Positions 22,316 to 35,801 of a stretch of 64,000 nt of DNA are shown one piece after another. Each line of letters starts with the position of its first letter. Position 1 is the stretch's first letter. The notes under the pieces were generated by a model, which saw only the letters and a program-made list of their open reading frames with translations, was not told the origin of the DNA and made no database searches. A program made the translations under genes and the position numbers. The DNA lies in the NCBI RefSeq assembly GCF_001280425.1, contig NZ_LIUF01000001.1, positions 786,945-850,944 on the forward strand. The letters are read 5' to 3'. This stretch comes from Haloarcula rubripromontorii. Lineage in GTDB: Archaea > Halobacteriota > Halobacteria > Halobacteriales > Haloarculaceae.

Positions 22316-22336
22316 CGCAGACACTGAGTGTGGAAC

Positions 22337-23905
22337 GTGCCTCTGGAGACGCCGGCACGAATCGTCAGCGAACTCGCGAGCCGGGGCTACAACGCGGAGC
22401 GCGAGGCAGTGACCCGGATCGCCGATACCCCGGATCCATCGGCGACGCTGGAACGCGCACTCGAAACCCTCCCCGATGACGCCCTGAAGCTGACAACCGA
22501 CCACGTCGAATCTGTGATTGAAACGACAGAAGATAGGGAAAACACGCCGAATACCGGATCAGAATCCGGAGATGAAATCACCGGCACTCCACCCAAGTCA
22601 CACCCCTCCGTTTCAACTGGAACAGATCCAGTCCCGTCGACCGAACCGGGTGCGTCTCCTCCACCTGAAACGGAGGGGTCACGGGACGTGGACACATCCC
22701 TCCGGGCAATCGAGGTTGCGAACGATATGACCGGCCAGTCAACTGGGACTGGCGAGTATTCGGACTTCGTCTCGGTGTTCCGGGACCGCTACGAGAAACT
22801 GGCGAGCAAACTCCGGGGTAGAGTGAACCACCGGCCGACCGACGCAATCGAAAACATGGGCGGCGGCAGCGACGCGGCGCTGATCGGGATGGTCTCGGAC
22901 ATCCGCTCGACCGCCAGCGGGCACTGGCTCGTCGAACTGGAAGACACGAACGGAACCTTCCCCTGTCTGGTGATGAAAGACCGCCCTATCGCCGACCTCG
23001 TCCAGCAGTTGCTCATGGACGAGGTCATCGCCGTCGAGGGGACGCTGGCCGACGACGCCGGCATCCTGTTTGTGGACTCGCTTTACTTCCCGGACGTGCC
23101 CCGAACGCACAGCCCCTCGACCGCTGACCGTCACGTTCAGGCGGCGCTCATCTCCGACGTTCACGTCGGGAGCCAGGAGTTCATGGAGGACGCCTGGCAC
23201 CGGTTCACGGACTGGCTCCACACTCCGGAGGCTGAGACCGTCGAGTACCTGCTCATCGCCGGCGACATGGTTGAGGGCGTCGGCATCTACCCCGAGCAGG
23301 ACGAGGAACTGGACATTATCGACATCTACGACCAGTACGAGGCCTTCTCGGAGTACCTCAAGGAGGTCCCGGGTGACATGGAGATCCGGATGATTCCGGG
23401 CAACCACGACGCCGTCCGACTGGCAGAGCCACAACCCGGCTTCGACGAGGAGTTGCGGGACATCATGAGTGCCCACGACGCGCAGGTCCACTCGAACCCG
23501 TCGCTGGTCACCGTCGAGGGCGTCACAGTGCTGATGTACCACGGCGTCTCGCTGGACGAGGTCATCGCCGAACTTCCGGACGAGGAGGCCAGCTACGAGG
23601 AGCCACACAAGGCGATGTACCAGCTCCTGAAGAAGCGCCACGTCGCGCCCCAGTACGGCGGCCACACCCGGCTCGCCCCCGAGGACCGCGACTATCTGGT
23701 CATGGAGGAGGTCCCGGACGTGTTCCACACTGGCCACGTCCACAAGCTCGGCTGGGGCGAGTACCACAACGTCGTTGCGCTGAACTCCGGGTGCTGGCAG
23801 GCCCAGACCGCATTCCAGAAGAGCGTCAATATCGACCCCGATGCCGGCTTTGCACCAATTCTGGACCTGGATACGCTTTCGATGACAGTCCGGAAGTTCT
23901 CCTGA
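22337..23905 (+). CDS. polD1: DNA polymerase D small subunit (DP1)
   Basis: Proofreading 3'-5' exonuclease subunit of PolD and partner of the large subunit at the window start. From GTG 22337 the product has 522 aa: a helical N-terminal domain (PLETPARIVSELASRGYNAE), a Ser/Thr/Pro-rich linker at about 65-130, an OB fold (ALIGMVSDIRSTASGHWLVE) and a calcineurin-like phosphodiesterase domain with LISDVHVGS, AGDMVEG, PGNHDAV, YHGVS and HTGHVHKLG, the full set of metal ligands. The alternative GTG at 22328 adds only three residues. The linker contains two inverted ORB-like boxes in unusual codons. A double-hairpin repeat begins 2 nt after the stop. Confidence 0.96.
   Translation: MPLETPARIVSELASRGYNAEREAVTRIADTPDPSATLERALETLPDDALKLTTDHVESVIETTEDRENTPNTGSESGDEITGTPPKSHPSVSTGTDPVPSTEPGASPPPETEGSRDVDTSLRAIEVANDMTGQSTGTGEYSDFVSVFRDRYEKLASKLRGRVNHRPTDAIENMGGGSDAALIGMVSDIRSTASGHWLVELEDTNGTFPCLVMKDRPIADLVQQLLMDEVIAVEGTLADDAGILFVDSLYFPDVPRTHSPSTADRHVQAALISDVHVGSQEFMEDAWHRFTDWLHTPEAETVEYLLIAGDMVEGVGIYPEQDEELDIIDIYDQYEAFSEYLKEVPGDMEIRMIPGNHDAVRLAEPQPGFDEELRDIMSAHDAQVHSNPSLVTVEGVTVLMYHGVSLDEVIAELPDEEASYEEPHKAMYQLLKKRHVAPQYGGHTRLAPEDRDYLVMEEVPDVFHTGHVHKLGWGEYHNVVALNSGCWQAQTAFQKSVNIDPDAGFAPILDLDTLSMTVRKFS
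22601..22623 (-). promoter_or_regulatory. ORB-like box D inside polD1
   Basis: The minus strand reads GTTCCAGTTGAAACGGAGGG then GTG, about 20 of 23 positions like ORB A. It is written across codons CAC CCC TCC GTT TCA ACT GGA, several of them unusual in this GC-rich gene. Confidence 0.6.
22658..22680 (+). promoter_or_regulatory. ORB-like box E inside polD1
   Basis: The plus strand reads CCTCCACCTGAAACGGAGGG then GTC. It is inverted relative to box D 35 bp away, the same divergent arrangement as ORB A and B. Codons CCT CCA CCT are unusual here. Confidence 0.55.
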
Positions 23906-23906
23906 A

Positions 23907-24012
23907 CCACCTTTTTCAGCGTCGCCTTTCCTCGCTCGCTTGGCTCGCTGCGGGAAGGCTCCTTGAAAAACGTGGGCGAAAAATGCCGGTCGCTCACTGG
24001 GTTCGCGACCGG
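23907..24012 (+). repeat. Intergenic double-hairpin element, copy 1
   Basis: It starts CCACCTTTTTCAGCGTCGCC, then a hairpin (GCCTTTCC with GGGAAGGC, one G-U pair), the spacer CTTGAAAAACGTGGGCGAAA, and a perfect 8-bp hairpin CCGGTCGC/GCGACCGG with loop TCACTGGGTTC. Copies at 28374 and 35195 share spacers and loops while the stems covary. The rest of the spacer up to metY (24013-24291) holds GC-rich sequence with further short hairpins but no gene that I can support. Confidence 0.75.
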
Positions 24013-24291
24013 TGAAACCGCTCGCCGCCGGCGAGCGGTATGCTACTACCCATTCACGCCGGCGGGCCTGCCCTTCCCCGGGTCGCTTCGGGTGCGACAG
24101 TCGTCGCACCACTTGCTCCCGGCCGTCCGCGTGTTCGCGCGTTGTCTCGACAGCATTCCATCGACCTGTACTCTGGCCAATCATGGACGAATGTATTCGG
24201 TAGTAGTGCGAAGAATCACCGCTATCTCGTAGCAGTGGCGGGGCTCACCGGTGTGGTCGCAATTAAGGCCTGTCAGGTGGAAGTGGGGTGT

Positions 24292-28122: not shown

Positions 28123-28340
28123 CGCGCTTTCTCAGGACGTGCGGTTCAAAACCGCGGAGAATAAAGCTACGAGCAGTTTTCCAGTCTTTGCAAACGATTC
28201 GACGTATCGACGACTTTATATTTAAACCGGCAGCAGAATCAAAATTAGCCTATGATGAACACAGCGACTATCGCAGGGCCATCTGAGTCTGAGTCCCTTC
28301 TACAGCGGACTTACGGAAATACTCCACAGATTAACTCTAC

Positions 28341-28366
28341 GGCTTCGGCGGCGGCCCGTCGTAGGC
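28341..28366 (-). repeat. Duplicate of the 3' end of the XPD-type helicase gene
   Basis: These 26 bp are identical to 28494-28519 inside the helicase gene. Read on the minus strand in the gene's frame, the duplicate encodes AYDGPPPKP and ends with its own stop (TAG instead of TGA) after a synonymous CCG/CCC change. It lies beyond the hairpin element, so the gene tail occurs twice, 153 bp apart. The remaining spacer 28123-28340 holds the promoter region of the esterase gene (an AAATATAAA word near 28220) and nothing else that I recognise. Confidence 0.7.
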
Positions 28367-28373
28367 CCCGGCA

Positions 28374-28478
28374 TCCACCTTTTTCAGCGTCGCCGTTCCT
28401 CACTCGCGCCGCTCGTTGCGGGACGACGCCTCGAAAAACGTGGGCGAAAAACGGTGTGTTCTCACTCCGCTCGAACAC
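28374..28478 (-). repeat. Intergenic double-hairpin element, copy 2
   Basis: The plus strand reads TCCACCTTTTTCAGCGTCGC, a stem with GGGACGACGC, the spacer CTCGAAAAACGTGGGCGAAA, then the hairpin GTGTTC/GAACAC with loop TCACTCCGCTC. In the direction of the adjacent helicase gene it lies directly after the stop, with T5 runs after the first hairpin, so it could act as a terminator. Confidence 0.72.
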
Positions 28479-28489
28479 ATGTCACTGAC

Positions 28490-30667
28490 TCAGGGCTTCG
28501 GCGGCGGCCCGTCGTAGGCGTCCATGTCCTGGTAGAAGTTCAGCATCGCGAACTTGAGTTTCTCGGGCCCGATGTCGACCATCTCGCGGCGCTCCTCCGG
28601 CGGGAAGGTCCCGCGGACGGCGTAGTCGTGCATCTCCATCTCGGCGGCCTCCGTGTAGCGCTTGTCCAGCAGGATGCGCGCGCCGAAGTCCTCGGGCGAG
28701 CGGACCACCCGCCCGAGGGCCTGTCTGGTCTTCCGGACCGTCGGAATCTCGACGGCGTAGCGCCAGCCGGCGTCGTCCTCGTCGTCGCCGAAGGCCACGT
28801 CGTAGGCGTCCTGGACGGCGTCCATCCGGTCGTCCAGATGGGGGTAGGGAACGCCGACGACCACGACGGTCCGGGCGTCGTCGCCGTCGTAGCTCACGCC
28901 CTCGCCCAGCGTCCCCCACAGCGAGGTGTAGAGGACGCCGTCGTCGCCGTCGGTGAAGGCCTCCCGGAGGTCACGGGCTTGGGTGCCCGGTTCGTCGAGG
29001 TATCGGGTCGCGCTCACGGCGGTCATGTCGTGGTAGCGCTCGGCCTCGCTGTAGGACGGGCAGAACACGAGCGTGTTGCCCGGCGTGAAGCGCACGATGT
29101 CTTCGAGCGTGCGGGCGATGCGCTGCTGGGTCTGTGGGTCGTCCCGCTCGCTGGAAAACAGCGCGGGGCCGTCGACGGCGTAGGTCCGGCGGCGCTCCTC
29201 GGGGAACTGCGCGCCGTAGGCCATCGTCACCGGGTCGTCGACGCCGACCACGTTCTCGGTCACGTCGAACGGCCGGAGCGTGGCGCTCATCAGCACCGCT
29301 GCGTGCAGGACGCCGAACAGGTCGCGGGTGACCTGCTCCGGGATGCAGGTGTACAGCTCCGCGCGGCCGTACACCTCGTCCGTCGACTCGTCCCGGCGGA
29401 CGCTGACGACGGGGTACTGTCCGGTCTCGTCCGTCTCGTCGAGCCAGTCGGCGATGAAGCCGGCGGCCTGCAGGGTCTGACACTCCTTTCTGGTGTCGAG
29501 GTCGCCCTCCTTGAACGCCTCCTGGTAGCGGGCGTCGAGGTCTCGGCCGAGTTCCAGCGCGTGGTCCAGTTCCTCGTGGAACCCGGGGCCGGTGTACCCC
29601 TGGAGGAAGGCGAGCGTCAGGTCGTCCTTCCGGTCGTCGTTGGCGATGGTCACGTCGTCCCAGTGCTCGTCGACGGCCTCGCGCCCGCCGAACTCGAATG
29701 AGTCCTCGTAGGCCTCGACGAGGGCGTCCCGAAACGTTCCGATGACGTTGGCTGCGGCGTCGGCCCGGGCGTCATCCTCGCCGTCGAGTTCGTCCAGCGC
29801 CTGGTCGAGCGTGTTCTCGGTCAGCGTCCGCCGGGCGTGGTCGCGGGCCGCGGACTCGACGTTGTGGGCCTCGTCGAAGACGGCGATGATGTCTTCGGGG
29901 TCGCGCCCGATCCAGTGGAAGAACTGTTCGCGGATGGTCGGGTCCAGCAGGTGGTGGTAGTTACAGACGACGAGGTCGACGCCGTCCATCCCCTCTTTCA
30001 GCAGTTCGTAGCCACACAGTCCCTGCTCGTGGGCGTACTCGTACACGTCGTCGGGCGTGCGCACGTCGTCGAACAGCCAGGAGTAGAACTCGCTGGTGTC
30101 GACGGTGAGGTTCCGGTAGTAGTGGTCGCAGGTCGAGCGCTCGGTCTCGATCTCCTCGCGCTCGTCCTGCAGGTCCCGCAGTTCCTCGACGACGGCGTTG
30201 CGGGCCTCCATCGCCTCGCTGCTGCCGGCCTGCCCGTCCGAGAGGAGTTCCCCCTCGCGCTGTTCGAGTTCGGCGATGTCGCTTTCGACCTCGACGAGGT
30301 CGCGGGTCGTGTCACGCAGGGCCTGACACTCCTCGTAGTCCACGTCGATATGGCACATCGACCCTTTGCCGCGGAAGACCACGGCCCGCAGCCGTTCCTG
30401 GTCCGTTATCGCTCTGGCGTCCTCGACGAACTGGCGCATCTGCTGGTGAACGTTCGTCGTGATGACGACGGTCTTGCCCGTCTCGCGGGCGTGTTCCAGC
30501 GCGGGGACCAGCGACGCGAGCGTCTTCCCGGTCCCGCAGGCCCCTTCGAACAGCACGTCACGGCCCTCGTCGAGCGCGTCGTAGATAGTCCCCATCGCCT
30601 CCTGCTGATGGTCGTACGGCTCCTCGAAGGGGAAAAACCGCATGTAGCCGTCGTCCGTTGTCGCCAC
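28490..30667 (-). CDS. XPD/Rad3-type (DinG-like) ATP-dependent DNA helicase
   Basis: A superfamily-2 5'-3' helicase with an iron-sulfur domain, 725 aa from GTG 30667. Motifs: RFFPFEEPYDHQQEAM (Q region), FEGACGTGKTLASL (I), cysteines in SMCHID, EECQAL, STCDHY and GLCGYE (4Fe-4S cluster), VCNYHHLLDP, AVFDEAHNVES (II), SATLRPF (III) and QALGRVVRSPEDFGAR (VI). A helical Glu-rich stretch separates the first two cysteines from the rest. The GTG at 30667 has AACCCTTTTG 27 nt upstream; ATG 30643 is the alternative. The C-terminus AYDGPPPKP is duplicated downstream. Confidence 0.9.
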   Translation of the reverse strand: MATTDDGYMRFFPFEEPYDHQQEAMGTIYDALDEGRDVLFEGACGTGKTLASLVPALEHARETGKTVVITTNVHQQMRQFVEDARAITDQERLRAVVFRGKGSMCHIDVDYEECQALRDTTRDLVEVESDIAELEQREGELLSDGQAGSSEAMEARNAVVEELRDLQDEREEIETERSTCDHYYRNLTVDTSEFYSWLFDDVRTPDDVYEYAHEQGLCGYELLKEGMDGVDLVVCNYHHLLDPTIREQFFHWIGRDPEDIIAVFDEAHNVESAARDHARRTLTENTLDQALDELDGEDDARADAAANVIGTFRDALVEAYEDSFEFGGREAVDEHWDDVTIANDDRKDDLTLAFLQGYTGPGFHEELDHALELGRDLDARYQEAFKEGDLDTRKECQTLQAAGFIADWLDETDETGQYPVVSVRRDESTDEVYGRAELYTCIPEQVTRDLFGVLHAAVLMSATLRPFDVTENVVGVDDPVTMAYGAQFPEERRRTYAVDGPALFSSERDDPQTQQRIARTLEDIVRFTPGNTLVFCPSYSEAERYHDMTAVSATRYLDEPGTQARDLREAFTDGDDGVLYTSLWGTLGEGVSYDGDDARTVVVVGVPYPHLDDRMDAVQDAYDVAFGDDEDDAGWRYAVEIPTVRKTRQALGRVVRSPEDFGARILLDKRYTEAAEMEMHDYAVRGTFPPEERREMVDIGPEKLKFAMLNFYQDMDAYDGPPPKP

Positions 30668-30743
30668 GTGCCCCGATTGGCCGTTCACCGGCAAAAGGGT
30701 TCGCCCCCACAGCTACTTGCCGCCAGCGCCCCTCACGGAACGC

Positions 30744-34097: not shown

Positions 34098-35189
34098 ATG
34101 GACCCACGTATCCGCGAACACGCGGAAGTCATTGTTGACCACTCTATCGATTTGAGCGAAGGCGACAACCTCGTTATCGACGCGCACCCTCAGGCTGCAG
34201 ATCTCGTTACCGCCCTCCACGAGTTCGCCGCCGACCGTGGCGCAAATCCGCTCGTCGTGCAGGACCGCCTCGGCGAGCGGTTCCGTCGCGCCTACCTCCG
34301 CAACCGCGACGAGTTTGAGACACCGAGCCACGTCGAGGCGCTGTACGAGGAGATGGACGCGTATATCGCGATCAAGGGTAGCGACAATGTCACCGAGACC
34401 AGCGATGTCGACCCCGAAACAACGGCCGCCTATCAGCAGTCCCAGCAGCCGCTCCTGAACGAGCGGCTCTCGAAGACCTGGTGTCTCACGCAATATCCTG
34501 CGCCCGCCAACGCACAGCTCGCCCAGACGTCCACGGAAGGGTACGAGAACTTCGTCTGGGATGCTGTCCTCAAAGACTGGGACGCCGTTCGCGAGCACCA
34601 GTCACAGATGGTCGAGATACTCGACCCCGCCGACGAAGTCCGCATCGTCTCCGGGGAGACAACAGACGTGACGATGTCTATCGCCGGCAACGAGACGCTC
34701 AACGACTACGGCGAGAAGAACCTCCCCGGCGGAGAGGTATTCACCGCCCCCGTCCCCGACAGCGTCGAGGGCGAGGTGCTGTTCGACAAGCCGCTGTACC
34801 ATCAGGGTCGGGAAGTGACTGATGTTTTCCTTCGCTTCGAGGGCGGCGAAGTCGTCGAGCACAGCGCCGCGAAGAACGAGGACCTCCTGACAGAGGTGCT
34901 ATCGACTGATGATGGGGCGAGCCGACTCGGCGAACTGGGTATCGGAATGAACCGGGATATCGACCAGTTCTCCTACAATATGCTGTTCGATGAAAAGATG
35001 GGCGACACCGTTCATATGGCGGTAGGGCGAGCCTACGACGCCACTGTCGGCGAGGAGAACGACCAAAACGAGTCCGCAGTCCACGTGGACATGATTGTCG
35101 ACATGAGCGAGGACTCGTTCATCGAAGTCGATGGCGAAGTCGTCCAGCGGGACGGGACGTTTGTCTTTGAAGACGGGTTCGAGGACTGA
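34098..35189 (+). CDS. M29-family aminopeptidase
   Basis: A cytoplasmic metallo-exopeptidase of 363 aa, related to thermophilic aminopeptidase T/AmpS. It starts MDPRIREHAEVIVDHSIDL; the C-terminal metal-site motifs are visible: LPGGEVFTAPV, FFxxEGG-like LRFEGGEVV, LGELGIGMN, FDEKMGDTVHMAVGRAYDAT and ESAVHVDMIVDM. Substrate range is unknown. Its last codons (VQRDGTFVFEDGF) are repeated, with three synonymous changes, 149 bp further on beyond a hairpin element. Confidence 0.92.
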   Translation: MDPRIREHAEVIVDHSIDLSEGDNLVIDAHPQAADLVTALHEFAADRGANPLVVQDRLGERFRRAYLRNRDEFETPSHVEALYEEMDAYIAIKGSDNVTETSDVDPETTAAYQQSQQPLLNERLSKTWCLTQYPAPANAQLAQTSTEGYENFVWDAVLKDWDAVREHQSQMVEILDPADEVRIVSGETTDVTMSIAGNETLNDYGEKNLPGGEVFTAPVPDSVEGEVLFDKPLYHQGREVTDVFLRFEGGEVVEHSAAKNEDLLTEVLSTDDGASRLGELGIGMNRDIDQFSYNMLFDEKMGDTVHMAVGRAYDATVGEENDQNESAVHVDMIVDMSEDSFIEVDGEVVQRDGTFVFEDGFED

Positions 35190-35194
35190 GTATC

Positions 35195-35283
35195 GACCGC
35201 GAACGGAGTGAGCGGTCGGCTTTTTCATCGACGTTTTTCGAGGAGTGGTCGCCGAAGGTGACCCGACGATGAAAAAGGTCGGT
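35195..35283 (+). repeat. Intergenic double-hairpin element, copy 3
   Basis: In the direction of the aminopeptidase gene: hairpin GACCGC/GCGGTC with loop GAACGGAGTGA, then GGCTTTTTCATCGACGTTTT TCGAGG, a second stem (GGTCGCC with GGTGACC), then GATGAAAAAGGTCGG. This is the same design and the same orientation relative to the gene as copy 2. The T5 runs make it a plausible terminator. Confidence 0.72.
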
Positions 35284-35287
35284 GCAG

Positions 35288-35331
35288 GTCGTCCAGCGGG
35301 ACGGGACGTTCGTCTTTGAGGACGGGTTTGA
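35288..35331 (+). repeat. Diverged duplicate of the aminopeptidase 3' end
   Basis: These 44 bp repeat 35139-35182 with three differences, each at a third codon position and silent (TTT/TTC, GAA/GAG, TTC/TTT). The duplicate would encode VQRDGTFVFEDGFEG in the same frame, but there is no start; it is a non-coding remnant of a gene end. Confidence 0.75.
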
Positions 35332-35426: not shown

Positions 35427-35801
35427 ATGAGTGAACAGCGGTCCCTCTTTGTCAGGGCGGTGTGGTTCCTGCTCGTCGGCTGGTGGGTGACCGGCATCTG
35501 GCTCTCGGTCGCGTGGTTCCTGAACGTCACAATCATCGGCCTCCCGCTGGGCATCAAGATGATAAACAAGGTGCCACTGGTGCTGACGCTCAAGCGACGT
35601 GATCGGCTCGTCACGGAGAGTGCTGGCGGCTCGCAGCACTCATTGCTCGTCCGGGCGATCTGGTTCGTCCTCGTCGGCTGGTGGGCCAGTGGCGTCTGGA
35701 CCGGTGTCGCGTACGCGCTGTCGTTGACAATCGTCGGCCTGCCGCTGGCAATCTGGATGTACAACAGGCTCCCGTTCGTCGTTTCGCTGTACCAGTACTG
35801 A
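35427..35801 (+). CDS. YccF-family membrane protein
   Basis: The 124-aa product has two repeats of the YccF domain: LFVRAVWFLLVGWWVTGIWL to NVTIIGLPLGIKM, and LLVRAIWFVLVGWWASGVWT to SLTIVGLPLAIWM. The IGLPLGI/VGLPLAI loops are the family signature. It is an integral membrane protein of unknown function. The start MSEQRS at 35427 is preferred; an in-frame ATG at 35403 would add eight residues. Confidence 0.85.
   Translation: MSEQRSLFVRAVWFLLVGWWVTGIWLSVAWFLNVTIIGLPLGIKMINKVPLVLTLKRRDRLVTESAGGSQHSLLVRAIWFVLVGWWASGVWTGVAYALSLTIVGLPLAIWMYNRLPFVVSLYQY

Follow-up and report, generated by a model that had tools for sequence, protein, structure and literature searches.

A palindromic element between two copies of a gene's end in Haloarcula: a probable non-coding cassette exchanged between species

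Where prophage e14 occupies the Escherichia coli icd gene, a 165-bp duplication with 12 changes is seen, two of them conservative replacements; the insertion gives the gene a new, mostly synonymous end, and the old end stands duplicated on the far side (PMC11148124). Small elements are also described in haloarchaea. The SMRs of Haloquadratum walsbyi span ~80–110 bp, carry inverted repeats and have no transposase (PMC3119063); they insert into other mobile elements (IS605/PATE) with no target duplication. DNA is lost in Haloquadratum and Halobacterium between short direct repeats, mostly <20 bp and up to 734 bp long (PMC3119063). The REP/REPIN and CGTC-tagged palindromes, as covered by the accessible part of PMC3733652, are small, dispersed and extragenic and lie near gene ends; that part describes no gene-end duplication and lists no archaeal family. 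Integron cassettes form arrays in which each unit ends in an imperfect palindrome (attC) with a variable terminal hairpin. Here we describe a structured, non-coding, imperfectly palindromic element of ~63 bp, termed E, which lies between two copies of the end of an M29 aminopeptidase gene in Haloarcula rubripromontorii.

The window analysed is a 64,000-nt stretch of this genome (G000), to which all positions refer. The parts of the locus are as follows.

34098..35189, + strand: M29 aminopeptidase gene (Pfam PF02073, Peptidase_M29, E-value 2.6e-65; ORF list); GTG 34083 is an alternative start
35139..35182, + strand: inner copy (D1) of the M29 gene end, after which GGACTGA completes the gene to 35189; part of the tract shared with H. 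vallismortis
35190..35220, + strand: 3' UTR with a terminator-like hairpin (about 35194-35218), absent in the E-less locus L098
35221..35281, + strand: core of E, an imperfect palindrome TTTTTCATCGACG...GAAAAAGGTCG (covariance model match, covariation, fold z = -4.2)
35288..35331, + strand: outer copy (D2), the end of the native allele, 6 nt past the E core; its flank agrees with E-less L098
35332..35426, + strand: native flank downstream of the gene end, as far as the YccF-like gene at 35427-35801; agrees with L098 and other relatives

The original prediction, that 44 bp of the M29 gene end recur 149 bp downstream with three synonymous changes and an insert of about 105 bp, was confirmed. The copies are identical at 41/44 positions and lie 149 bp apart, start to start. 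Their three differences in the M29 frame (TTT>TTC, GAA>GAG, TTC>TTT) are all silent, and the inserted stretch measures 105 bp. Of the window's local direct repeats 28 nt or longer, the 35139/35288 pair is the sole one above 82% identity (93%; next best 82%), and is therefore not due to chance. A looser scan, whose extension rule leaves out the 35139 pair, added a second gene-end duplication (28339-28369 and 28492-28522) that likewise flanks E, and an internal repeat in the YccF-like gene. That gene comprises two diverged copies of one domain, seen as a 25-bp direct repeat. The predicted hairpin between the M29 copies is present (covariance model match at 35221-35283, 82.9 bits, E-value 2e-17), but it is not a lone element, since E occurs three times in the window.

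Other Haloarcula strains had been proposed as the place to look for empty sites. Alleles without E were indeed found among relatives, which differ in arrangement rather than all sharing one. At the E-less locus L098 (G007) the gene end occurs once, as ...GGGTTCGAAGCGTAAcgccggacccacac, and its stop codon and flank agree with the outer copy of the carriers; the carriers' inner gene ends terminate GAGGACTGA. The outer copy is therefore native, and the inner end was brought by the cassette. This single native-type end and the differing stops support the view that an insertion supplied a new gene end. The outer copy was rightly read as the end of an allele, although it no longer works as one: its stop codon has since been lost (GAA GGG TAC...), leaving the reading frame open to 35413. 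With the inner gene end came its stop codon, the 3' UTR and its hairpin (35190..35220) and E, all from another allele.

An exchange tract is visible against H. vallismortis (G031; L008/L089). The two sequences differ at 29/364 sites up to 35102 and at none of the 186 bp between 35103 and 35288, past which they diverge again, in D2 and beyond. The chance of an identical tract of this length is about 2e-7 at the surrounding divergence of ~8%. UTR and E are identical between the two (96/96), compared with 84-90% identity between G000 and every other carrier; the M29 gene bodies are at 90-95%. H. vallismortis has two units in tandem at this locus. In H. sebkhae (G023; L010/L097), a partial E is joined to the outer gene-end copy via an internal deletion, a state of cassette decay.

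The window holds a second cassette host, a helicase gene, and a third E without a gene-end copy.

28490..30694, - strand: DEAD_2/XPD-type helicase gene (Pfam, ORF)
28492..28522, - strand: inner copy of the helicase gene end, terminating ...GAAGCCCTGA (sequence comparison, repeat scan)
28373..28451, - strand: E element 2 (covariance model, 69.1 bits)
28339..28369, - strand: outer copy of the helicase gene end, terminating ...GAAGCCGTAG (sequence comparison, repeat scan)
23905..23983, - strand: E element 3, no gene-end copy (covariance model); its right end abuts the stop codon of convergent gene 22328-23905 (DNA_pol_E_B/metallophosphatase domains)

At the helicase locus, E and the E/D2 junction GGTGGATGCCG are common to G000, G012 and G007, whose flanks are unrelated. 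E is missing from G001, with a flank as in G000, and from G020, with a G012-like flank. The stop codons are TGA inside and TAG outside in G000 and G012, and reversed in G007.

The points of exchange could be placed at a glutaredoxin-like gene with a 36-bp repeat, in which C/T at nt 3 and G/A at nt 21 are diagnostic. E-less G027 has D = ATC...GAAGAA. G000 has D1 = ATC...GAAGAG and D2 = ATT...GAAGAA, and donor-like G012 has D1 = ATC...GAAGAG and D2 = ATT...GAAGAG. In G000, D1 is thus recipient on the left and donor on the right and D2 the converse, as a single exchange within the repeat predicts. Both exchange points fall between nt 3 and 21, within ~20 bp, despite kilobases of homology on offer. 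Cassette aside, G027 and G000 are ~100% identical over ~600 bp (about -200 to +420). UTR and E are 101/103 identical between G000 and G012, while the gene differs by ~9% and the flank by ~18%. The direction is ambiguous because excision in G027 would give the same pattern, but the reaction is still localised.

We surveyed the genus for this arrangement. A direct repeat of upstream sequence stands just after E at 53/101 E sites, in 28/57 independent gene clusters, and in almost every case this repeat is the upstream gene's end; a reversed-sequence control gave 0. Gene-end copies occur at 8/21 E copies in G000 and at 16/38 E matches outside the genus, some of which share one array. At 10 of the remaining 13 G000 copies (L321-L338), the stop of a convergent gene lies -1 to 4 nt from the right end of E; in these 13, E lies 28-243 nt from the stop of the upstream gene. 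D2 often starts 0-10 nt from E. Duplications run from 26 to >150 bp with no fixed size, unlike the short, fixed-length target duplications of MITEs. The repeat is gene-specific, with 28 different sequences in 28 gene clusters and hence no single fixed attachment sequence.

Three silent changes had been taken to need coding selection, which such a small number alone does not demand. The case is made by many loci together: away from the E-proximal edge, 48/68 codon differences between D1 and D2 are synonymous; fully neutral change would give 30%, and coding in the inner copy alone 46%. The excess over 46% has p = 3e-5, or 1.6e-4 collapsed by gene, values that are approximate because sites are not fully independent. 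Both copies were therefore functional gene ends for most of their divergence, as imported alleles predict; this and the L098 flank bear out the outer copy as the end of another allele. Stop codons often differ between the two copies. Arrays also exist. A glutaredoxin-like gene in another genus (G087, L375) has six units spaced at 154-157 bp, in which gene ends 1-5 agree and the sixth and the outermost differ, and L376 has three units. Such a make-up is what repeated insertion and unequal exchange would give. Successive gene ends in the G087 array encode differing C-terminal tails.

E itself is conserved in structure. In an alignment of 50 diverse copies, a 19-pair structure is held in 95.6% of cells, with a covariation score of 0.311, where shuffles gave 0.069 and sliding no more than 0.078. 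The outermost two pairs are unbroken in 50/50 sequences with varying identity (CG, GC, AU, UA), and a G.G mismatch beside the T-run/A-run stem is present in nearly all. T-runs occur on both strands beside stop codons. This covariation fits RNA and folded DNA alike and does not tell them apart. The covariance model finds 21 copies in the whole G000 genome and matches in 167/195 sampled haloarchaeal genomes, covering 60/65 genera. A comparison of 13 E loci with Rfam 15 gave no match at an E-value of 1 or below over E itself; matches within these loci were confined to RNase P and one sub-threshold match inside it. Two unrelated G000 loci (C1:645902 and C5:241594) share a 67-bp core at 97% identity, and the match stops exactly at the core.

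In outcome, e14 in icd is the nearest documented parallel. Gene-end duplication with restoration, as for integrase-type elements, is found at the M29, glutaredoxin and helicase loci. However, e14 is an integrase-bearing prophage with a single target, whereas the cassette is non-coding, ~100-150 bp long and found at many genes with gene-specific repeats; the 105-bp insert of the M29 locus has no room for an integrase gene. The suggested likeness to site-specific integration did not hold up, since each gene has its own repeat, with the exchange points falling in homology specific to that gene. SMRs match E in size, inverted repeats, haloarchaeal host and lack of a transposase, but E sits at gene ends with gene-end duplications. 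E resembles the REP-type palindromes in its dispersal near gene ends and differs in having long variable hairpins and fixed linkers. Haloarchaeal repeat-mediated deletion offers a ready route for cassette loss, but accounts for neither gain nor exchange of alleles. Compared with integron cassettes, E units carry just a gene end, their junctions are homologous, no GTTRRRY-type box was seen in the E consensus and no integrase is known.

These observations are probably best explained by a non-coding cassette that haloarchaeal species exchange through homologous recombination inside the duplicated gene end. The cassette would run from the gene's last part through the stop codon, the UTR hairpin and E into the beginning of a second copy of that gene end. 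Homology would be provided on the left by the gene body or by the repeat's first half, and on the right by the second gene-end copy. With a gene-end copy as right arm, the cassette can enter any relative having the gene, whatever the downstream DNA. After insertion the gene would run on the incoming end and stop, and the resident end would be left beyond E as a decaying relic. Recombination between both copies would then lead to traceless loss of the cassette or to arrays. We infer ordinary homologous recombination as the agent of exchange; mating between haloarchaeal species at ~87% identity is documented (PMC12186497). Against this account stand the ambiguous direction where a close empty relative exists and the confinement of both glutaredoxin exchange points to ~20 bp. 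The frequent start of D2 within 0-10 nt of E goes beyond ordinary recombination and hints at a dedicated joining step. With E at convergent stops and 97% identical cores at unrelated loci, it leaves room for a dedicated enzyme. Our comparisons used one genome per species, and within no species was an insertion seen. The original prediction thus stands as to the imported gene end and the outer copy as another allele, and is not supported as worded on the selection argument and site-specific integration.

A wider scheme is possible and is offered tentatively. Non-coding mobile cassettes throughout the Halobacteria might use the copy of their target's 3' end as their own homology arm, such that a single exchange in this copy inserts or excises them (possibly as tiny circles), swaps gene ends between species and builds arrays, with the folded palindrome taking the role of an encoded enzyme.

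Should E instead be a genuine mobile element served by a dedicated enzyme, for instance an ssDNA transposase or a recombinase that acts on the palindrome in its folded form, it would insert at gene 3' ends with a long, variable target duplication, and homologous exchange would be secondary. The near-identity of non-orthologous copies over exactly the 67-bp core, the strong covariation with conserved mismatches, and a right end that always adjoins coding sequence or a gene-end copy all suit this reading. We nevertheless consider it unlikely, as no enzyme was found, the duplications vary widely in length, and the copies differ synonymously, like alleles. A Y1/RAYT mobiliser was rejected: G000 lacks a Y1 transposase, and with it the Y1 gene flanked by repeats, yet carries its 21 E copies, and among 22 Y1 loci of relatives one weak E match lay nearby. 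A diversity-generating retroelement was likewise set aside, the changes being synonymous and not adenine-directed and the insert too small for a reverse transcriptase gene. As to vehicles, an exact-pattern search found nothing in viral contigs, and a plasmid search gave two partial matches (78-79%).

We regard it as improbable that E is a plain conserved transcription terminator under selection, without a role in exchange, and that the gene-end copies are scars of ordinary interspecies gene replacement. Both gene-end duplications in the window lie at E and the outer copy regularly begins at its right end, which argues against this reading even though T-runs at stop codons on both strands, the position between convergent genes and the recombination of haloarchaea across species (PMC12186497) favour it. 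Local tandem duplication of the gene end and its native terminator by slippage or unequal crossing over, followed by decay, is very improbable. It would place E after the outer copy too, where the flank of E-less alleles is found instead; the synonymous excess and exchanged stop codons require two coding alleles, and the cassette is common to species with unrelated flanks. Arrays do exist, and unequal exchange between repeats surely changes copy number, but as sole cause tandem duplication is refuted at the glutaredoxin and helicase loci. The flank comparisons also rule out programmed slippage, and a simple slippage origin, named beforehand as a possible refutation, does not fit. A fold-back origin of the UTR hairpin, with its right arm made from the native left arm, fitted by eye at a few loci and was rejected: the D1-side stem was better than the native side in only 8/17 clusters.

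If exchange of a non-coding cassette is correct, DNA that encodes no enzyme of its own can spread by means of a copy of a conserved gene's end and common haloarchaeal recombination, with harmless insertion. Such cassettes could explain why gene ends show silent patchwork and altered tails, and provide naturally marked exchange tracts of just ~150-200 bp. With them comes the question of what recognises or folds a palindrome conserved throughout an archaeal class. No description of the element or its setting was found in open-licence papers, which is weak evidence of novelty.

Some further features of E were observed. Its right ends also lie at apparent tRNA 3' ends, judged by eye, and ~40 nt ahead of a gene for RNase P RNA (loci L163, L210, L134, L175 and L145). 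In many of the E copies that lack a gene-end copy, conservation reaches further upstream, taking in GACGGGGAAGGGCAGGCC, a hairpin after GCATACCGC, then GCGGTTTCACCG and, ahead of the T-run, another hairpin. Examples are the window copy at 23905-23983 (- strand), with its extension at about 23984-24150 (- strand), and L146, L136, L182, L186, L203, L209 and L216. This extended part is possibly a larger structured RNA. Lastly, the Natrialbaceae relatives L058, L072, L080 and L055 have a variant E (CGAAG-TTTTT...AAAAAG-TTCG) with a gene-end copy behind the same M29 gene, apparently through independent events.
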